DNA of 40,209 nt from a virus. Under the pieces are notes generated by a model, which saw only the letters and a program-made list of their open reading frames with translations, had not been told where the DNA came from and ran no database searches. The DNA is taken from positions 1 through 40,209 of IMG/VR virus record IMGVR_UViG_3300027365_000030; one strand, given 5' to 3'. The translations under genes were made by a program, and so were the position numbers. Positions 82 through 40,209 of this stretch are shown here, piece by piece. Numbering within the stretch: position 1 is the stretch's first letter; the number at the start of each line of letters is the position of its first letter.

Positions 82-111
82 TTGACAGGAGGGGAGGGGT
101 GGGCTTATTCT
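82..111 (+). promoter_or_regulatory. Sigma70-like promoter of the left control region
   Basis: TTGACA (82-87) is a perfect -35 box. TTATTCTT follows after exactly 17 bases (105-112), giving TATTCT as the -10 at 18-base spacing. The same TTGACR-N17-TTATNCT layout recurs at 1735 and 7034. Transcription would start near base 118, inside the palindrome 116-130. Confidence 0.6.
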
Positions 112-115
112 TGGT

Positions 116-130
116 CATCACCTGGTGATG
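116..130. promoter_or_regulatory. Palindromic operator candidate at the promoter start site
   Basis: CATCACCTGGTGATG is a perfect 7+1+7 inverted repeat placed immediately after the -10 box at 106-111, over the predicted start site. That is a usual position for a repressor operator. The cognate regulator is not identifiable; the winged-helix protein at 588 is a candidate only because it lies nearby. Confidence 0.5.
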
Positions 131-169
131 TGAAAATCTTTCCTACACCATGTGAAAATCTTTCCTACA
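128..169 (+). repeat. Two 20-bp direct repeats with a 22-bp period
   Basis: ATGTGAAAATCTTTCCTACA occurs exactly at 128-147 and 150-169. The 22-bp period is about two helical turns, so bound proteins would sit on the same DNA face. Each copy ends in a TTCCTA box that reappears within the palindromes at 238-256 and 367-385. Iteron-like or operator-like binding sites are the likely role. Confidence 0.6.
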
Positions 170-237: not shown

Positions 238-256
238 ATAGGAATAATTTTCCTAT
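238..256. promoter_or_regulatory. TAGGAA/TTCCTA palindrome, copy 1
   Basis: ATAGGAATAATTTTCCTAT is a 7+5+7 inverted repeat. Its half site TTCCTA matches the direct repeats at 128-169, and the whole closely matches the palindrome at 367-385. It is a candidate dimer-binding site in the leader between the promoter at 82 and the gene at 417. It could instead act as an RNA hairpin. Confidence 0.5.
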
Positions 257-366: not shown

Positions 367-385
367 GTAGGAACAATTTTCCTAC
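367..385. promoter_or_regulatory. TAGGAA/TTCCTA palindrome, copy 2
   Basis: GTAGGAACAATTTTCCTAC is a 7+5+7 inverted repeat sharing the AATTTTCCTA core with the site at 238-256. It lies 32 bases before the ATG at 417, close to the ribosome site. A bound protein, or the same sequence as an RNA hairpin, could control the small gene that follows. Confidence 0.5.
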
Positions 386-539: not shown

Positions 540-587
540 AACTTTAATACTCAGGCTTACCGTAGAAAATCTAGTATGGAGGTAAGT

Positions 588-1085
588 ATGCAAGAAATAG
601 ATGAACAGTTTTACAAATTCCCTAAAATGCTGATGATGGCAGACGCTTATGTGAGCAGGAAAACGGGAGAGATTGTCAGGTTGACAGATGCAGACAAGAA
701 TGTGTATGTTGTGATGAAAGCTCGTAACGAGTTCTTTGACAACCATTACGACAAGCAATCGGACATTGCAGAAATGTGCAACCTGACAGTCAGGAAGGCC
801 GGAGGAGCCATCCGTGAATTTACAAAGCACGGCATCATTGAAAGCAGTAAGGTTTATTCAGGAGGGGAGCATAAGAATCTGAAGTACACCAAGATTCATT
901 GCTTGGAGCTTCTGAGGGCCGAGGGTGAGGGAGATAACCGGAAACACATACCAATAGGTATCCTCCCAGAGACAATCTGGCAGAAGGTTGAGAAGAAGGT
1001 TGTTGTACCTAAAGCCGCCCAACAGAAGAGTATTTATACGCCACCAGCACCAAACTGGGACGACGAAGAAGGATTACCATTTTAG
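588..1085 (+). CDS. Winged-helix DNA-binding protein with SSB-like acidic C-terminal tail
   Basis: The product is 165 aa. I chose ATG 588 because GGAGG at 578-582 is well spaced for it; ATG 576 is upstream of that site. Residues about 35-90 read like the helix-turn-helix region of phage replication/regulatory proteins (FFDNHYDKQSDIAEMCNLTV then a helix ending FTKHGIIES). A linker rich in P and K follows. The protein ends WDDEEGLPF, an acidic stretch plus Pro-Phe very like the bacterial SSB tip DDDIPF that recruits replication and repair proteins. A homologous domain with the same tail is fused to a GIY-YIG nuclease at 35791-36531. A replication-initiation or origin-associated role is inferred from the tail and from the box-rich DNA upstream. 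A plain transcription regulator is the alternative. Confidence 0.7.
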   Translation: MQEIDEQFYKFPKMLMMADAYVSRKTGEIVRLTDADKNVYVVMKARNEFFDNHYDKQSDIAEMCNLTVRKAGGAIREFTKHGIIESSKVYSGGEHKNLKYTKIHCLELLRAEGEGDNRKHIPIGILPETIWQKVEKKVVVPKAAQQKSIYTPPAPNWDDEEGLPF

Positions 1086-1090
1086 GAGGT
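1062..1090 (+). repeat. 29-bp exact repeat, left copy (inverted partner at 35786-35814)
   Basis: These 29 bases encode the residues DEEGLPF plus the stop codon of the winged-helix gene and the AGGAGGT ribosome site of the next gene. The same 29 bases occur exactly, on the minus strand, at 35786-35814 at the end of the GIY-YIG/winged-helix gene. Bases on both sides differ, so the match is bounded. Confidence 0.9.
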
Positions 1091-1093
1091 TGT

Positions 1094-1390
1094 ATGAGTT
1101 TTGATGTAGGAGATACAGTTTATGCACTTAGGGTATTGGGTAGGTCTGCTTGCTGTGAGGCTCCGTCTATGCTTTTTGCTATGCGCGGGGATGAGCTAGA
1201 AATTTTGAAAGTGCATGAACCAAAACCTCATGATAAAACCACATGGTATGAAGTCAGATTGAAGCGAGGGTCTGGTGAATTCTTTGTCACATCGGGCGAC
1301 ATCACAAAGATGAAGCATTTTGAATTTAACTACAGCGAGTTTCAAAAAGAACTTGACAAAGAGATGGCAAGAGATTATGGAGGCTGGTAA
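1094..1390 (+). CDS. Hypothetical protein (98 aa)
   Basis: The ATG lies a few bases after AGGAGGT (1084-1090), which is also the end of the 29-bp repeat. The product begins MSFDVGDTVYALRV. A run of alternating hydrophobic and charged residues (VGDTVYALR, DELEILKVHE, TWYEVRLKRG, EFFVTSGDI) suggests a small beta-barrel, SH3-like fold in the first 75 residues. A charged helix (SEFQKELDKEMARDY) follows. I do not recognise a family. Eight bases separate it from the winged-helix gene upstream, so it is almost certainly co-transcribed and translationally linked with it. Its function is unknown. Confidence 0.65.
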   Translation: MSFDVGDTVYALRVLGRSACCEAPSMLFAMRGDELEILKVHEPKPHDKTTWYEVRLKRGSGEFFVTSGDITKMKHFEFNYSEFQKELDKEMARDYGGW

Positions 1391-22568: not shown

Positions 22569-24461
22569 GTGGAAATTGCCAAGTATACAGTTGGAGTAGA
22601 TTTTAATCTTAAGTGGAAGCAGCTAGATAAGAACCTAAAACTTCTTGAAAAGAAACTAGCTAAATTCTCTGCTGGGAAACTTGCTTTCTCAATTGATCGC
22701 TTTGTTGTTGATCAGCGTAAGTTAAACATTGTCCTCGGTAATGCTCTAGACCGAGCCAGCATGACAACTGCTTTCTCAATTGATCGCTTTGTTGTTGATC
22801 AAGCAAGCCTTACCCGTCAAATGACAAGAGCTATGAAGAATGCTGCTAGAGCGGCAAGCTCCCAAGCAGATATCACCCCAAACGTAAATGGTCGCGGTGG
22901 TATTAGCACAAGACAGGCGGGTGTAGCTGGTGGTGTAGGTGGATTTACCGCTCGTGCTTATATGCCGCTTGTTGCTCTTGCTGGTGGCGGATATGGTCTT
23001 GGTGCTCTTAATCGTCGTAACCAAGAGATTGTTTCGGCTCAGCTACAGACTTCAGCCATTGTTCAACAAGCTGGCGGTAATGCTGCTCAGGGAACAGAGG
23101 CTTTTGATTGGCTTAGGGCACAAGGGGAACGAGTAGGTTTCAACTGGCTTGAGGCTATTCCTGATTACAACAAACTGATTTCCGGCCTGGCTGGTGCGGG
23201 AATGACAGTTGAGCAAAGTCAGGGAGTTTTTCAAGGCTTCTCTGAATTGGCTCGTGTTAATAAGCTTGACCGCACTTCTCAGAATCGTTTGTTTCGGGCG
23301 CTGAGTCAAGTGGCTGGTAAGAACCAGTTGATGTCAGAAGAACTTACCGGACAGATTGCTGAAGCTCTTCCTGGGGGTGTTGCTGTCTTTGCTGAAGCAT
23401 ACCAACGTAAGCTTGCTGCGGAGGGACGTGGGGGCGGCAAAACTGGAAGCGAGGCAATTCAAGAACTTCGCAGCGCAATGGAGCGGCGTGAGGTCAAAGG
23501 TGATATTCTTCTGTATGCTGGGCAACGTGCCGGGGAGATGGCACAACCCGGTCTGACTGCGGCACAAAAAGCGTCACAAGCTGAGCAAGCAAGATTTCAG
23601 AATGCTTACAACCAATTAGCAATGGTGGCAAGTAATGCTGGTGTTGAAAGTGGTTTTGCTCGCCTGTTTAGAGCAATGGCCGATGGTGCCCGAGAGGCTG
23701 GCCCTCTGGTTGAATCATTAGCCAAAGGCTTTGATGAGATAACTAAATATGTCTCCGTAGCCATGCTTAGCTTTCAGTCACTGCAAAGATTCTTTCAGGG
23801 TCGAGATAGCTTCCTCGGTGACAAACTCTTCCCAGATAAGGAGACAAGAAGTAAAGCTCTTCTTTGGTTGGAATCTACTAAACAAGCTTTTACAGAAGTC
23901 AACACCCTGTTGGGGAACTCTATTACTGGTTGGCAACAGCTTTTGGGAACTTTAGAATCTAGTTCCGTACTAGATCGCCTTATGACTGCAATGTCTACCA
24001 TCTCAAACAGTGCAGGGGCATTGAATGCTTTAGTTGAGGGTGATTTTGGAAAAGCTGGAGAGATGGCTGCTGAAGCAGGTAAGAGGTATGCCAACACGCT
24101 GACGGCCCCAGGAAGGGCAGGCGTAAATGCTGCTCTGAGGGGAGGTACAAGGCTGCTGGAAGCTATTGATCCGAGAGTAGATGTTGGGTCAACCGTACCA
24201 CCACAACTTAGTGGGTTCAGTGTAACAGAAGATTGGATTACTCAACAAAAAATACAAAGACAGTTAGCAGCCCAGCAAGCAGCTAAAGAGGGTTATCCGA
24301 ATCCAGTAGGGATTTTCCCGATGGACAAGCAGGCTGGACAAGTTACTGCAACTTTCAATATTTACGATGCAACCAATCCAGATAAGGTTGGGGAGGTTGT
24401 TCGTATTAAGCTTGAAGACATGTTTAAGGCCGTTAATGCCGAAAACCCAGAATTAGAATAA
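22569..24461 (+). CDS. Tail tape measure protein
   Basis: The 630-aa product starts at GTG 22569 after GAAGGTAA. Tape measure proteins fix tail length at about 0.15 nm per residue, which would predict a tail near 95 nm. Residues about 150-270 match the phage tape-measure N-terminal domain (AIVQQAGGNAAQGTEAFDWL, GVFQGFSELARVNKLD, MSEELTGQIAEALPGGVAVF). A hydrophobic Gly-rich segment near residue 130 could insert in a membrane at DNA ejection. The N-terminal 75 residues contain FSIDRFVVDQ twice, encoded by an exact 33-bp repeat. The last 60 residues (ATFNIYDATNPDKVGEVVRIKLEDMFKAV) are a typical C-terminus for this class. Confidence 0.9.
   Translation: MEIAKYTVGVDFNLKWKQLDKNLKLLEKKLAKFSAGKLAFSIDRFVVDQRKLNIVLGNALDRASMTTAFSIDRFVVDQASLTRQMTRAMKNAARAASSQADITPNVNGRGGISTRQAGVAGGVGGFTARAYMPLVALAGGGYGLGALNRRNQEIVSAQLQTSAIVQQAGGNAAQGTEAFDWLRAQGERVGFNWLEAIPDYNKLISGLAGAGMTVEQSQGVFQGFSELARVNKLDRTSQNRLFRALSQVAGKNQLMSEELTGQIAEALPGGVAVFAEAYQRKLAAEGRGGGKTGSEAIQELRSAMERREVKGDILLYAGQRAGEMAQPGLTAAQKASQAEQARFQNAYNQLAMVASNAGVESGFARLFRAMADGAREAGPLVESLAKGFDEITKYVSVAMLSFQSLQRFFQGRDSFLGDKLFPDKETRSKALLWLESTKQAFTEVNTLLGNSITGWQQLLGTLESSSVLDRLMTAMSTISNSAGALNALVEGDFGKAGEMAAEAGKRYANTLTAPGRAGVNAALRGGTRLLEAIDPRVDVGSTVPPQLSGFSVTEDWITQQKIQRQLAAQQAAKEGYPNPVGIFPMDKQAGQVTATFNIYDATNPDKVGEVVRIKLEDMFKAVNAENPELE
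22682..22801 (+). repeat. 33-bp exact tandem-type repeat in the tape measure gene
   Basis: A 33-bp sequence beginning TGCTTTCTCAATTGATCG occurs exactly at 22682-22714 and 22769-22801. The spacing is 87 bases (29 codons), so the reading frame is kept and FSIDRFVVDQ is encoded twice. Flanking DNA is not repeated, which suggests recent copying or strong selection on the peptide. Confidence 0.9.
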
Positions 24462-29783: not shown

Positions 29784-31034
29784 ATGGCAACAACTAAACC
29801 GGATTATACATATAAGTGGGCGTCTGATGGAGATAAGATTGCTCCTTCGGAGGCAAAGATTCAAACAGGTTGGTCGCCTGAAATCCCACCCTATCAGTGG
29901 GAAAACTGGATTCAAAATCGTCAGGATGAGATGCTGGCTCATATCAATGAGCGTGGTATTCCTGAGTGGGACAACAAGACCGACTACATTGCGGGTAAAT
30001 CTTATGTACAAGGTAGCGATGGTCTTGTTTATAAATCTGTAGCTGCGTCTGGACCGACGAGCGTAGTGAGCAATCCCATAACAGACACTGCTCAAACTTA
30101 CTGGGTAAAAGCTTTTATTGAGAACGGTGCTTTAACTCTAGTATCTTCAAGTCGAAGTCTTACCCAAGCTAATATTGGGACGGTGCTGGTTAATGCAAGC
30201 TCTGCTTTAACAGTAACACTACCCTCCTCTTCTGGGTTGAAGGATAGTGAGTTTTTCCTACAGCGTAGGGATATAACCAGCAATCAAGTCATAATTGCAG
30301 CAAGCGGAACTGATAGTATCATGCTTGATACTGTTATAAATACGTCTGGTCAGGCCAGCACTGAGCTGCTGTTTGCGGGCGACTTCCTGCGGTTGCGCAG
30401 CGATGGTGCGGGGAAGTGGTGGTGTGTGGGGCAGGCGCAATTGCCGGGAAGTATTGCGAGCGGACTGATGGCATTTACGACCGCTGGATCACATGTCTTC
30501 ACCGTCCCAGCCGTACTGCGTAGCGGACGGCGGAAGCCGCATGTAACTGTCGTTGGTGGCGGTGGCGCAGGTGGACGAGGTAACACATCATCATCAAGGG
30601 GAGGTGGTGGTGGTGGGGGCGGGACCGCCATAGCCCTTGTCACTTTGGCAGGGGTTAGCTCTGTGTCAGTGACCGTTGGCCAAGGCGGCGCAGGCGCAGC
30701 TGGAGATGGTGGTAACGGGGGCACGAGTTCATTCGGCGTTTGGCTATCAGCCACTGGAGGCAGTGGCGGCACTCTCGCTGGTGGGGCCGCTGGCGTGGGC
30801 GTTGGCGGCGACCTAAATTTAAGAGGCCAGAGTGGTAGCGACTCCCCCGCCGCTGCATATGGCGGTGGCAGTGGTGACGGCGGCGGGAGCCATATGGGCG
30901 GAGGCGGACGGAGCGCAACTGAAGTAGATGCCGTTATCGATGGAGGCGCATATGGTGGTGGTGGTGGTGGAACTGACGGTGGGGATATCCGGGGTGGCCA
31001 CGGGGCCACGGGCGTAGTGATAGTGAGGTGGTGA
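29784..31034 (+). CDS. Tail fibre with glycine-rich receptor-binding C-terminus
   Basis: The product is 416 aa. Residues 1-55 (YKWASDGDKIAPSEAKIQTGWSPEIPPYQWENWIQNRQDEMLAHINERG) are a common N-terminal attachment domain of phage fibres. Residues about 60-110 have WDNKTDYIAGKSYVQGSDGLVYKSVAASG, a chitinase/carbohydrate-binding-like module. Residues about 250-416 are dominated by Gly runs (VVGGGGAGGRGN, GGGGGGGG) and end HGATGVVIVRW, an adhesin-type tip that sandwiches polyglycine helices. From about base 30350 the DNA becomes clearly GC-rich, unlike the first part of the gene, and stays so into the next gene: probable import of the receptor-binding end. Confidence 0.85.
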   Translation: MATTKPDYTYKWASDGDKIAPSEAKIQTGWSPEIPPYQWENWIQNRQDEMLAHINERGIPEWDNKTDYIAGKSYVQGSDGLVYKSVAASGPTSVVSNPITDTAQTYWVKAFIENGALTLVSSSRSLTQANIGTVLVNASSALTVTLPSSSGLKDSEFFLQRRDITSNQVIIAASGTDSIMLDTVINTSGQASTELLFAGDFLRLRSDGAGKWWCVGQAQLPGSIASGLMAFTTAGSHVFTVPAVLRSGRRKPHVTVVGGGGAGGRGNTSSSRGGGGGGGGTAIALVTLAGVSSVSVTVGQGGAGAAGDGGNGGTSSFGVWLSATGGSGGTLAGGAAGVGVGGDLNLRGQSGSDSPAAAYGGGSGDGGGSHMGGGGRSATEVDAVIDGGAYGGGGGGTDGGDIRGGHGATGVVIVRW

Positions 31035-31036
31035 GT

Positions 31037-31396
31037 ATGTGGGCACAGATCGAAAACGGCATCGTGGCCGAAATCACGGACATCGACCCCACAGGGCGCT
31101 TCCATCCGTTTTTGAAGTGGGTGGAGTGTAACTTTAGTGTAAAACAGGGTTGGAAATACGATGGGGACTCTTTTAGTGATAATATTCGTCTACCCACCTA
31201 TCAAGAAGAGTTGCAAATTCTGAACGCAGATTATCAAAAAGATGTTGATGCTTTCAACAAGGCATTCTCTCTTGCCATTCTGTTTGACGGGGTAACTGAA
31301 GAAGCTAAGAAAGCTTCAATCAGAGAACAATACAACAATCGCAAGCAAAAGTATGTTTCTGACATCGCAGCACTTAAGCTCAAGCATGGAGTATAA
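31037..31396 (+). CDS. Tail fibre assembly protein, probable
   Basis: The 119-aa product has ATG 31037 placed after GAGGTGGTGAG, part of which lies in the fibre stop region; GTG 31028 would add three residues. The first 40 residues (MWAQIENGIVAEITDIDPTGRFHPFLKWVEC) are typical of small proteins encoded after fibres in Pseudomonas phages and prophages, thought to help fibre folding. The last 70 residues (YQEELQILNADYQKDVDAFNKAF...YVSDIAALKLKHGV) are helical. GC content is high up to about 31110 and normal afterwards, so the gene itself is a mosaic of imported N-terminus and resident C-terminus. Confidence 0.7.
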   Translation: MWAQIENGIVAEITDIDPTGRFHPFLKWVECNFSVKQGWKYDGDSFSDNIRLPTYQEELQILNADYQKDVDAFNKAFSLAILFDGVTEEAKKASIREQYNNRKQKYVSDIAALKLKHGV

Positions 31397-35156: not shown

Positions 35157-35780
35157 TCACTCTTCAATCACATAGTTTTCGTAGCGTTCAATCAAAGCTT
35201 TAGCAACACGAGGGTCAGATTGTTCAGCAGCAAGAATTTTAGCTTGTTCAAGTTTAAAAGCAAGCCATGCTTTGTGAGCTTCGAGTTCTGTGTCGAAGAG
35301 TCCGAGATGTTTCTGCTTTCCTGATCCATCGCCACACAGCGCCTGAAATTTATTAACCCCTCTATGCCAGCAGACACCAATCATCAATCGCCCACGAGAA
35401 GCATTTCTTTCAGTTACGAACAAATTAACCTTCTTGTCCACAAAGACACAGGCACGGGGGCTGTATACTTCGTTACCTTGTAGCAACAGGTCTTTATCTA
35501 ATTGTTTTCCTTCCCAATCTTGCTTTTCCATCCAATGTTTAAAGTTTGAAAAGACAAGCCAGTCTTTACAGACAGAGCAGCCAATGTAGGTTGGATACTT
35601 TTCTTGCCACTTAGCGGAGTAGCACCGCCGAAGCATGTCTCTCCATTTACAGTAGAATGGACAAATCCACACAAGTTTCCGCTTTTGTTCACCGTTTTCA
35701 TAGTTGATCGTTTCACACTTTTCCACAGCATAATCTGCATCATTTATTCCAACACCATAGAGTAATTTCTTTTTCTTCAC
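35157..35780 (-). CDS. HNH-family homing endonuclease (relative of 33472)
   Basis: The 207-aa product starts at GTG 35780, six bases after AGGAGGT on the minus strand (the ribosome site within the 29-bp repeat). A longer frame reaching 35867 would overlap the upstream gene and lacks a site. The order of blocks matches the enzyme at 33472-34140: GVGINDADYAV, CPFYCKWRDMLRRCYS, PTYIGCSVCKDWLVFSNFKHWMEK, LDKDLLLQGNEVYSPRACVFV, then a C-terminal DNA-binding part (KQKHLGLFDTELEAHKAWLAFKLEQA) that recalls AP2-type tails. It lies last in the minus-strand block, directly after the GIY-YIG fusion gene. Confidence 0.85.
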   Translation of the reverse strand: MKKKKLLYGVGINDADYAVEKCETINYENGEQKRKLVWICPFYCKWRDMLRRCYSAKWQEKYPTYIGCSVCKDWLVFSNFKHWMEKQDWEGKQLDKDLLLQGNEVYSPRACVFVDKKVNLFVTERNASRGRLMIGVCWHRGVNKFQALCGDGSGKQKHLGLFDTELEAHKAWLAFKLEQAKILAAEQSDPRVAKALIERYENYVIEE

Positions 35781-35785
35781 AACAC

Positions 35786-35814
35786 ACCTCCTAAAATGGT
35801 AATCCTTCTTCGTC
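35786..35814 (-). repeat. 29-bp exact repeat, right copy (inverted partner at 1062-1090)
   Basis: Read on the minus strand it encodes DEEGLPF, the stop codon TAG of the GIY-YIG fusion gene and the AGGAGGT ribosome site of the next gene. It is identical to 1062-1090 on the plus strand, about 34.7 kb away. Confidence 0.9.
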
Positions 35815-36531
35815 ATTCCCTTGGTGGGGCCGAGGAGCCAAGGATTGAGATAGGATGCGAGTCCCAAACTCCTCTACAATACCGTGTTTATCCAAAACAC
35901 CAAATTGCAACTCTTCCATAATTCTATAAGTGTTGTACCTTTCGTTGAAAGTATTTTTGCTCTTAATCTCAAGGTAGCCACACTGCTTCAGAACTTGAAA
36001 GAGAGAGTGTACAGATTTCCTCACCGTAGCACAAGCCTTGGCTATATCTTCTTGTTTATCAAAATATTCCTCACCTCTTTCCTTGAAAAACTTGTAACGA
36101 TTTATAAAATATAACAACACCACCTTATTTGTATGGCTTATGCTGACGTAACTGCCATCCTTCAAGTTCTTTACGTGAGTCGCACGTATTACTGAATAAT
36201 AGCAAGGGAAGTGGGTGTCAACTTCCCGGTCATGCGGTACAGGCGCGTCGCCCACTATGAGAGACTTCACTTTCTCTTGTTTATGAAATCTGGCACTATA
36301 TCCACCACCTCTCGTGATATTATCTAAACTCAGACTTTGATCGGAGATACACTCCTTCTCCACCCTGTTTGCTTCTTCTACGTCCCAAGTCTCGTAGAAG
36401 ATATTCATGGTAATATCTTCGCCATAGTTTCTCTTATGATGACGAAGCCGCATCTCTGGGTTTTTAGTCAAGCCGATATAGAACACCTCTTTGTTTTCGA
36501 CTAACTGGTAAACATAGATAATTTTCTTCAC
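35791..36531 (-). CDS. GIY-YIG nuclease fused to winged-helix domain with SSB-like tail
   Basis: The 246-aa product starts at GTG 36531, after GAGGAAA. Residues 1-80 form a GIY-YIG nuclease domain: IIYVYQLVENKEVFYIGLTKNPEMRLRHHK carries the two Tyr motifs and the Arg helix, EANRVEKECI the Glu, and DNITRGGG the closing Asn. Residues about 105-190 align with the winged-helix protein at 588-1085 (FPCYYSVIRATHVKNLKDGS; NKVVLLYF..FF; FDKQEDIAKACATVRKSVHS; GYLEIKS). The protein ends GNDEEGLPF, the same SSB-like tip. So it appears to be a homing nuclease that has captured a replication/regulatory DNA-binding domain, or the reverse. The function of the fusion is unknown to me. Confidence 0.8.
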   Translation of the reverse strand: MKKIIYVYQLVENKEVFYIGLTKNPEMRLRHHKRNYGEDITMNIFYETWDVEEANRVEKECISDQSLSLDNITRGGGYSARFHKQEKVKSLIVGDAPVPHDREVDTHFPCYYSVIRATHVKNLKDGSYVSISHTNKVVLLYFINRYKFFKERGEEYFDKQEDIAKACATVRKSVHSLFQVLKQCGYLEIKSKNTFNERYNTYRIMEELQFGVLDKHGIVEEFGTRILSQSLAPRPHQGNDEEGLPF

Positions 36532-36622: not shown

Positions 36623-36645
36623 ATAAAATGGGTTACACCGGAACC

Positions 36646-36930
36646 TTACTCTCCCAAATACTCTTTCAGATTATCAAAGCCGCCAATATACTCCATCTCA
36701 CCCCCATTCACAACGAAGATTTGAGGAATACTGCGTGGAAGAGGAAGCCCCATATCTTGCACTAGGGTGAATAGCTGGTCACGATATGTGAGAGGTGTCT
36801 CACATCCATCTTCTGCTCCGTTGCATTGATCGTAGATATCATAGTATTGATAATCTTTCTCTCGCATGTCAAGCAGCATCTTAGTTTTAGTGCAATAGCT
36901 GCATTTCTCTCCACCGTACACAATAAACAT
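36646..36930 (-). CDS. Glutaredoxin
   Basis: The product is 94 aa. I chose the ATG at 36930 after AGGAGAA; a longer frame to 36969 has no site and would overlap nrdB further. The redox site is CSYC (Cys10, Cys13) in FIVYGGEKCSYCTKTKMLL. SIPQIFVV holds the conserved cis-Pro, and IGGFDNLKEYL the Gly-Gly glutathione-binding motif. The insertion YDQCNGAEDGCET between them is longer than in E. coli Grx and adds two Cys. It should reduce the phage ribonucleotide reductase encoded just upstream. The start lies 17 bases after nrdB ends, so they share a transcript. Confidence 0.9.
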   Translation of the reverse strand: MFIVYGGEKCSYCTKTKMLLDMREKDYQYYDIYDQCNGAEDGCETPLTYRDQLFTLVQDMGLPLPRSIPQIFVVNGGEMEYIGGFDNLKEYLGE

Positions 36931-38064: not shown

Positions 38065-40209
38065 TTAAAGTTTGCAGCTTTCGCAAGCTTCCTCTTCAGG
38101 TTGTGTAGCACCAAGGATACCTTGAACACCACCTCCGTTGTAGTCGCGGGTGTTCATGTAGTACTGGGTCTTATTCCCGGCCTTAGCCTGTGCTACCCAT
38201 TCCTTCATAAGCTCACTTAGCGGCTTCTTCTCATCTTCATATTTACTCGGATCAAAGTAGTAATCAGCACTGATAGCTTGGTCAGTAAAATCCTGTACTC
38301 TGGAATAATACTTGGACAAAGTAATGTTGTCCACGTCCCAAGCCAGTTTCTTACCCGGCGTCCAATCTTTCGAGATATACTGAATGATACCTTTCCGAGA
38401 TTTCTTGTTAATCACTTTCTGCCGTGGTGGGTACAAGCTGTTATCTGCATCACAGAACACAGCACTTGACTCTGTAGGCATATGTGCAGCTAGCACAGAA
38501 TGCTTACGGGGCTTACCACGAAGCGACTCCCAATCAAGCGTCAGAGTGTAGCCTTTGTTCACGCGAGTGTCAACAGGCAACCAATCTTTCTTAATACCCT
38601 CAACAGCATAGCCACTTTCTTCTGCCAATTTCTGAGAAGCTTTCAGAAGATAAAAGTAATGGGTTTCAGCAATTTTGCTCACAAAGGTAAAAGACTCTTC
38701 GCTACCATCATAATCAAGACCTTCACGATACAGCGCTCCAGCCAACCCCGTAATACCAACCCCTGCACTACGACGACGCATGATGCTGTTCTTCATTGAA
38801 GCTGTCATCATTGGCGCTTTGTCAATCATCTTGTCTACAGCACGCAAAGCAACTTCGGCCACATACTCATACTCTTCAAAACTTACTTTACCAACATTAA
38901 TTGCTGAAAGTGTACAAAAAGCAGTTTCAGCTTCTGACTCTTCGGCATACAAGTCTTGCATATTCTTGTAAGCTTTTGTAGGGAGGCATATTTCCTGACA
39001 TAAATTTGACAGTCGGATAACGTCAATAAATGGCGTATGCTCATTAACACGAGTCACGTTAATGGAGTACATACGCCCTGTTTCATTACGAGCAATCAAC
39101 ACACTCTTTAGTAGATCACGGGCTTTTAGTTTCTTAAACTTCTTACCCTTTTCAATACAACCTTTGACTACGGAGTTATATTTATCCGCCTTCAGCACAT
39201 AGAAAGCTTCGTGAATCTCTGGTGCCTCAGTCAAATCAAACAGATACCAGTCTTCATTATTGATAACAGCCTGCAAGAAAGCATCGTTATAAGCAAAGCT
39301 GTAGTCCATCTTATCCAGACGAGTTTCGATATCTACCCTCTGAGTTTTCCAAAGAACAATACTTTCTACTTCAGGATCAATACACTTAAAAGTAACTGTA
39401 GCACTACCGCCACGGCTAATCTGAGTAAACATCTTTACAGCTTTGTCGAGGGTAGAATAAATCGGGTGTTTACCCAAATGCTTTACAGCCCCACCTTTAA
39501 CTGGTGCCCCTTTCGAGCGCGTATCAAACTCAATACCGATGCCTGCTTTCTTTGCCGTCATCTTATAAGCAATGTGTTCGGCAACACCAATACTGTCTAC
39601 GCTATCCCCTCCGGTGATAATGCAGCAACTAATGGTATCAAAATCTCCTGTGCGAATACCGTTAAGTGCAGGGGTTGGAAGATTTACTTTTCCTTCTACC
39701 AAAGCTTTAGCAAGATCAAAAGCTTCTTGCGTATCACCATGCAAGCCAAGACCAATGCCAATGCAACCAATGTGAGGAGTTTCTACAGGTACATCATCCT
39801 TACGAATAGCATACTTATCGCCCCACTGAACAATTTGCCAGTATTCAAGCTTAGTTGGATAAATCTCCTCATACCAACTTTCCCATACCGGGTTGTATTC
39901 AGGCATAGTCTTTTCATCCCAAACACCACCACGAATCATTGCCTCAAAGATTGCTTTAAAACTGTCCCGATCAGAGACACCAAGAACACGCTCCATGTTC
40001 TTACGCAGGCTTGCTTGTTCAAGACGTGCAGCAATGCGGGAATAGTTAATATCTTCCTTGTCCAAACAAACATTAATCATCATCTGGTGAATATCAGAGG
40101 ACTTTGCTGTCTCAGGGAGACGCTTATACGTTTCCATTGCAATCTCAGACCAGTTACCGCCTGTTTTAGTGGCATATTGTGCCCACTTATTAAGCTTCTC
40201 TGCACTAAA
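38065..40209 (-). CDS. nrdA: Ribonucleoside-diphosphate reductase class Ia, alpha subunit (5' end outside window)
   Basis: 714 residues are visible and the frame is open to base 40209, so the N-terminus (ATP-cone region) lies outside; the Met at 40137 is internal, as the residues before it (LNKWAQYATKTGGNW) continue the fold. Active-site features are present: SCCIITGGDSVDSI with the first redox Cys, RLSNLCQEICLPT with the radical Cys and Glu (C439/E441 of E. coli), KAGIGIEF and GGSATV of the substrate site, HMPTESS, QYYMNTRD with the Tyr-Tyr radical pair, and the C-terminal CESCKL redox pair. It reduces ribonucleotides for phage DNA synthesis. It has no visible intron or intein in this part. 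Confidence 0.95.
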   Translation of the reverse strand, partial: FSAEKLNKWAQYATKTGGNWSEIAMETYKRLPETAKSSDIHQMMINVCLDKEDINYSRIAARLEQASLRKNMERVLGVSDRDSFKAIFEAMIRGGVWDEKTMPEYNPVWESWYEEIYPTKLEYWQIVQWGDKYAIRKDDVPVETPHIGCIGIGLGLHGDTQEAFDLAKALVEGKVNLPTPALNGIRTGDFDTISCCIITGGDSVDSIGVAEHIAYKMTAKKAGIGIEFDTRSKGAPVKGGAVKHLGKHPIYSTLDKAVKMFTQISRGGSATVTFKCIDPEVESIVLWKTQRVDIETRLDKMDYSFAYNDAFLQAVINNEDWYLFDLTEAPEIHEAFYVLKADKYNSVVKGCIEKGKKFKKLKARDLLKSVLIARNETGRMYSINVTRVNEHTPFIDVIRLSNLCQEICLPTKAYKNMQDLYAEESEAETAFCTLSAINVGKVSFEEYEYVAEVALRAVDKMIDKAPMMTASMKNSIMRRRSAGVGITGLAGALYREGLDYDGSEESFTFVSKIAETHYFYLLKASQKLAEESGYAVEGIKKDWLPVDTRVNKGYTLTLDWESLRGKPRKHSVLAAHMPTESSAVFCDADNSLYPPRQKVINKKSRKGIIQYISKDWTPGKKLAWDVDNITLSKYYSRVQDFTDQAISADYYFDPSKYEDEKKPLSELMKEWVAQAKAGNKTQYYMNTRDYNGGGVQGILGATQPEEEACESCKL

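Follow-up and report, generated by a model that had tools for sequence, protein, structure and literature searches.

Two predicted initiator-family genes and their common end

The window, the whole 40,209-nt stretch of viral DNA analysed here, carries an exact 29-mer, GACGAAGAAGGATTACCATTTTAGGAGGT, once on each strand (Table 1). It is composed of the last seven codons of a gene (DEEGLPF), the TAG stop and the GAGGT of the next gene's ribosome site, and at both copies the stop codon overlaps the GGAGG of the gene that follows. No third copy was found elsewhere in the window, even with three mismatches allowed. Dinucleotide-preserving shuffles gave no 29-mer matches, and the chance expectation is ~3e-9; a repeat search extended the match to 34 nt at 94%. 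The exact inverted 29-bp repeat described in an earlier note on this DNA is thus present in both copies, far beyond chance. Its inverted layout arises because the two genes, here called P1 and P2, occupy opposite strands. Their bodies share ~46% nucleotide identity, in line with the distant similarity that had been claimed for them.

Table 1. Coordinates of the features at the two initiator loci of the window
Feature	Position	Strand	Remarks
Sigma-70-like promoter	82..111	+	Inside conserved left flank (1-101) of replicon module
Two direct 20-nt copies, ATGTGAAAATCTTTCCTACA	128..169	+	Within origin-like region
17-bp palindrome, TAGGAATAATTTTCCTA	239..255	+	Candidate iteron/operator
17-bp palindrome, TAGGAACAATTTTCCTA	368..384	+	Candidate iteron/operator
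Small ORF, 40 aa	417..539	+	Directly upstream of rep; position conserved in relatives
P1, predicted RepA_N-like replication initiator	576..1085	+	Winged-helix domain and SSB-like tail NWDDEEGLPF
29-mer copy 1	1062..1090	+	DEEGLPF codons, TAG, overlapping GAGGT; end of left-hand Rep gene (P1)
Gene downstream of rep, phrog_21763	1094..1390	+	Reads from ribosome site overlapping tail
HNH endonuclease gene, phrog_953	35157..35774	-	One residue apart from sister-phage copy; homologues at many unrelated loci
29-mer copy 2	35786..35814	-	DEEGLPF codons, stop, ribosome site; end of GIY-YIG/Rep fusion gene (P2)
P2	35791..36531	-	GIY-YIG/T5orf172 nuclease domain and RepA_N-like (DUF6945) domain; tail NDEEGLPF; candidate origin-directed nuclease
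DUF6945 of P2 (Odn/PLE-RepA type DNA-binding domain), residues 116-191	35959..36186	-	29.8 bits against cut-off of 28
T5orf172/GIY-YIG domain of P2, residues 4-60	36352..36522	-	Score exceeds curated cut-offs
Glutaredoxin gene (grx)	36646..36930	-	Left boundary of exchanged block just past grx stop, near 36626

The left-hand gene, at locus A, is a predicted RepA_N-like replication initiator. Position 588, which is better placed after GGAGG than 576, may be its start. P1 matches the replication initiation proteins of phrog_8102 (E=4e-9), and a profile built from its relatives hits PDB 4ro3 (E=4.5e-12), which is the RepA N-terminal domain of the V. cholerae phage satellite PLE (PMC7145576). In a Foldseek search with the AlphaFold model (mean pLDDT 74), 4ro3 again ranked first (E=3.6e-5), followed by the Staphylococcus plasmid RepA structures 4pql, 4pt7 and 5kbj; on these sequence and model comparisons 4ro3 is the best structural relative. 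The Pfam scores of P1 fall below the cut-offs for both RepA_N (PF06970; 13.8 bits against 30) and DUF6945 (21.9 against 28). Two features of the RepA_N family are present at locus A, a winged-helix domain of that fold and semi-palindromic repeats that covary with the body class. The 40-aa ORF upstream possibly encodes a regulator of the copy-control type. Two genes past rep lies an HNH/NUMOD3 homing endonuclease gene (1840-2790), not found at that position in the G005 and G003 alignments.

The right-hand gene, at locus B, is a fusion. The model of P2 (mean pLDDT 67) likewise has 4ro3 as its top structural match, and the DUF6945-containing C-terminal part shows 46-47% amino acid identity to the locus-B initiators of sister phages. 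A similar architecture is known from ICP1 Odn (ORF88/gp88), which combines a T5orf172 nuclease with an initiator-type DNA-binding domain, and putative Odns occur in the coliphages Inny, Muut and Mt1B1_P17 (PMC8263062, PMC10448857). Both ICP1 ORF88 and P2 score above the curated cut-offs for T5orf172 and DUF6945, and in both the DUF6945/RepA_N-type domain resembles a rival initiator, at 46-47% in P2 and 42% in Odn. In contrast to Odn, P2 has its nuclease domain first and keeps an initiator-type C-terminal tail, and the initiator it resembles has so far been seen at the same locus of sister phages and in no satellite. Because the domain order differs, we call P2 Odn-like and do not file it as an Odn; the order is not known to be essential.

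The window is collinear with a complete-looking 88-kb relative, G001, which has a 127-bp terminal repeat. Megablast of positions 1-24000 against annotated phages gave no match, and tblastn of P1 and P2 matched only phiPMW and KLEP7. The nuclease part of P2 alone had no match, nor did its initiator part against plasmids or the profiles against a bacterial genome collection. Since the phage, plasmid and bacterial searches were empty beyond phiPMW and KLEP7, they pointed to no satellite, prophage or host; the hosts of the nearest annotated relatives are Pseudomonas putida and Pseudaeromonas. Elsewhere in the window, an exact 33-bp direct repeat (22682-22714 and 22769-22801, 87 bases apart) lies inside the ORF at 22569-24461, and the sequence at 22769-22801 is also exact in G001.

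Exchange of initiator bodies at the tail

At locus A, where G001 and G005 carry another rep body, positions 1-101 of the window match these two phages at 95-97%. Across the next stretch (102-1012), with the repeats, the 40-aa ORF and the body of rep, the sequences diverge or for the most part cannot be aligned, and similarity returns at 1013-1119. G003, with a window-type body at locus A, matches throughout (94%). The 17-bp palindromes have the form TAGG-n9-CCTA, with one type per body class of locus A or of a third initiator locus, C; the bases after TAGG are AAC or AAT in the window, CAC in G004, ACT in G001 and G005, TCT in L103 and L106, and ATC in the C type. These palindromes lie upstream of the locus A and C rep genes and almost nowhere else, and none of this class was found at locus B. 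Locus C, with palindromes of its own, is represented by L104 (G003 30884-31354) and L105; a phage carrying as many as three initiator genes could have several origins.

At locus B, the window and G001 match to just past the grx stop and differ across the gene body; the match resumes at the first base of the 29-mer and covers the whole HNH gene with one mismatch. In the grx-HNH interval where the window has P2, G001 (locus B at 70.1-71.0 kb) and G002 carry a small gene and a plain initiator with a different body, followed by the same tail and an HNH gene that differs from the window copy at one base, so that the nuclease-initiator fusion stands in place of the sisters' plain initiator. L014 combines a G001-type initiator body with an HNH segment that is 78% identical, the break falling right after the tail, and in G005 the HNH gene directly follows grx, with neither initiator nor tail between them. 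Because L014, G005 and G001 carry different combinations, the initiator and the HNH gene are seen to be exchanged separately, with the tail as the seam. The HNH protein belongs to phrog_953 (E=4e-89), and its gene is found at 18 loci with differing neighbours, with two copies in some genomes, which suggests a free-standing, predicted homing endonuclease family. Farther out, the large ribonucleotide reductase (RNR) gene of G001 contains ~977 inserted bases (G001 66757-67734; L003:60-1331) that the window lacks, the window site at 38999/39000 being uninterrupted; the 3' part of the insertion resembles an intein C-terminus (...MGMFNGLLTGQC).

A search of related genomes, proposed in the earlier note, revealed the same tail DNA on paralogues in other phages. 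Three tail alleles were distinguished, each common to divergent initiator bodies. Allele 1 (DDEEGLPF) occurs at loci A, B and C, on genes with bodies 39-54% identical in nucleotides. Allele 2, TGGATGGATATGGAAGACCCGTTCTGA, is common to the locus A gene of G001 and L103 over 27 identical nt, with bodies 47% identical, and a scan of the viral collection found it on no other contig; L106, a close relative of L103, encodes a peptide of this type with silent changes. Allele 3 is shared by the locus A gene of G004 and L100 over ~85 near-identical nt with a 38-nt exact core, again on divergent bodies. Near-identical bodies also occur with different tails, as in the locus A genes of G001 and G005 (bodies 91% identical, tails 33%), and in G001 another HNH gene directly follows the changed tail.

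At the level of aligned DNA, these comparisons show that initiator bodies are exchanged among phages of this group, the 3' junction lying in or beside the tail, and that at the origin locus the body class is accompanied by its own palindromic repeats. Because tails and bodies recombine and each body class travels with its own palindromes, the tail can be regarded as the 3' seam at which replicon modules can be swapped.

Alternative origins of the shared tail

The recombination proposed in the earlier note is supported, as divergent bodies share tails and the identity with G001 runs from the 29-mer through the HNH gene; a direct, recent conversion between P1 and P2 is improbable, given that the same tail DNA lies on paralogues elsewhere. 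The evidence supports exchange among phages at a conserved initiator tail. The genome inversion that had been offered as an option finds no support, as the window, G001, G003 and G005 are all collinear over both loci and their outer flanks. Nor is a dedicated DNA or RNA element needed beyond a stop codon overlapping the Shine-Dalgarno sequence.

Without any exchange, the tail could be an old shared peptide held identical solely by protein, codon and ribosome-site constraint. The tail indeed looks functional, the overlap of the stop with GGAGG fixes TAG and GAGG, the codons GAA, CCA and TTT within it are common, and the locus A and C tails of G003 differ silently (6/8 codons). The earlier note had held that the identity exceeds what the protein requires, and comparison of silent sites inside and outside the repeat bears this out. 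Under the codon usage of this phage group, the chance of the same codons for DEEGLPF and the stop is 4e-4. At identical residues, P1 and P2 use the same codon in 7/7 cases in the tail as against 9/26 in the body (Fisher p=0.003), and the tail includes TTA, which makes up 9% of Leu codons here. Moreover, silent tail differences occur on near-identical bodies (the locus C gene of G003 and L105; L103 and L106), while divergent bodies carry exactly equal tails. Since the shared tracts of alleles 1 and 2 are short (27-30 nt), selection on codons and peptide may contribute to them and could partly mimic exchange there; for allele 2 alone, the chance of the same codons is ~0.7%. The ~85-nt tract of allele 3, and the identity at locus B that extends into the HNH gene, would hardly be expected without exchange, and constraint as the full explanation is unlikely.

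The 29-mer might instead be the recognition or insertion site of the adjacent HNH endonuclease, carried along by homing. The repeat ends at the start of the HNH gene, this family is mobile and occupies many loci, and the swapped tail at locus A of G001 is likewise followed by an HNH gene. However, homologues at many sites lack the 29-mer, P1 keeps the full 29-mer though the genome encodes the HNH protein, and alleles 2 and 3 move without this HNH gene. Because it lies beside grx without a tail in G005, the HNH gene is insufficient as the sole cause, and we regard this origin of the 29-mer as improbable.

Direct gene conversion within this genome would have copied the P1 tail onto P2, or the reverse. 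All 29 nt agree between the two window copies, each with GAC where the locus-B tails of L014 and G003 carry GAT. Against this, the 29-mer also stands at locus B of G001, with an almost identical HNH gene behind it that P1 does not have, and locus A of G001 carries a different tail. The right-hand copy is for this reason better explained by a locus-B allele, and such a conversion seems quite improbable. Finally, a chimeric assembly at the P2 locus is very improbable: P2 is present in one contig only, but the outer flanks (RNR at ~98-99%; HNH and beyond) keep the order and spacing of the sisters, both tail copies occur independently in other contigs, and P2 reads as an unbroken ORF in which two domains can be recognised.

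We thus favour, with a probability of about 0.72, the reading that the 29-mer is the 3' end of a swappable RepA_N-like initiator family, that exchanges occur at the tail and that the fusion P2 is Odn-like. Several observations weigh against it besides the shortness of the allele 1 and allele 2 tracts: the P2 junctions, on a single contig, have no independent copy, P1 scores under the Pfam cut-offs, no TAGG-class palindromes were found at locus B, which leaves an origin there conjectural, and the domain order of P2 is the reverse of that in Odn.

The SSB-like tail and modular replicons

Acidic C-terminal ends closing with a hydrophobic residue, Pro and Phe recur among the relatives (DDEEGLPF, WDESDLPF, WDDSQLPF and WMDMEDPF). 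The C-terminal tip of bacterial SSB and the tails of the T7 gp2.5 type consist of an acidic stretch with a terminal Pro-Phe, which the tails here resemble; the difference is that the tail here sits on a predicted sequence-specific initiator and not on an SSB. In four genomes, only 10/418 ORFs end in PF, namely the rep paralogues, P2 and a gp2.5-like SSB candidate. This ~220-aa protein ends in DELDAPF, DDSIPF or DDDLDAPF, and in G001 and G005 it matches the gp2.5-like ssDNA-binding proteins of phrog_112 (E=1.5e-7 and 1.7e-5). With PF endings confined in these genomes to the initiators, P2 and the SSB candidate, the natural inference from these sequences is that the initiators have borrowed the SSB tip as a means of contacting the usual protein partners of SSB. 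The literature searched offered no clear precedent for SSB-tail mimicry in phage initiators. A related winged-helix protein of the Pseudaeromonas phage KLEP7, annotated as a 'transcriptional regulator' (L008:5971-6435), also has an SSB-like end, FEDDNDPPF, and is probably an initiator rather than a regulator. A nuclease-like phage family ending in SDEEGFPF, with conserved DNA at the gene end (L010, L011 and L015-L019; PD-(D/E)XK-like by reading of the sequence), was rejected as a relative of the tail, as the codons and the gene are different.

In the favoured reading of exchange at the tail, the 29-mer would mark RepA_N-like initiators of ~90-kb phages that have an acidic DDEEGLPF tail and a TAG overlapping the next ribosome site. 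The tail has probably been kept because an SSB-like tail is needed, and it would contact one or more partners of the single-stranded-DNA-binding protein during replisome loading. P2 would be an Odn-like origin-directed or homing nuclease that took the place of a sister-type initiator, with the conserved tail and the grx end as the sites of recombination, and the nuclease genes beside the tail may make breaks that promote the exchanges. More tentatively, P2 could be directed against sister phages, recognising and cutting the locus-B replicon of relatives and being copied there in its place, with the tail as a recombination arm. This is a speculative proposal, more doubtful than the exchange itself; if it were true, one gene would join homing to replicon warfare between phages, and initiator tails would be shared, portable host-interface modules.

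Initiators with an origin-specific part and a part contacting helicase-loading partners, exchanged as modules, are familiar from the O gene of lambdoid phages. The likeness to the present initiators lies in this modular exchange of the two parts; the sequences are unrelated, and the conserved part here is a short acidic tail. In the PLE satellite replicons of V. cholerae, the origin changes in step with the RepA_N domain while the 3' end of repA stays almost the same from type to type; specificity has been swapped repeatedly, and the iterons are semi-palindromic (PMC8263062, PMC7145576). The system described here resembles them in the covariation of body and palindromes, the near-constant 3' end, the repeated swaps, the semi-palindromic repeats and the 4ro3 fold. 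It differs in that the initiators belong to the ~90-kb phages themselves, at up to three paralogous loci, and in that what is conserved at the 3' end is only a short tail, SSB-like and common to the loci, as compared to the 178-bp C-terminal domain of PLE. Nuclease genes are also known to occupy phage exchange boundaries, where HNH and T5orf172 genes flank the exchanged blocks close to RNR and replication genes (PMC10448857). The same gene types and neighbourhood are seen here, while the seam lies inside the coding end of the initiator and is datable by several allele combinations.

Most of what is known of modular RepA replicons and origin-directed nucleases comes from ICP1 and its satellites. 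The system described here is one of modular RepA_N replicons and an Odn-like nuclease in a further phage group, with the SSB-like tail as a new feature. The same logic in another phage group, in initiators of the phages themselves, suggests its generality. Recruitment of the replisome by RepA_N proteins has been described as unknown, and their C-termini as genus-specific (PMC7145576); the SSB-like tail names a candidate for this recruitment function of the RepA_N C-terminus, namely contact with the partners of SSB.
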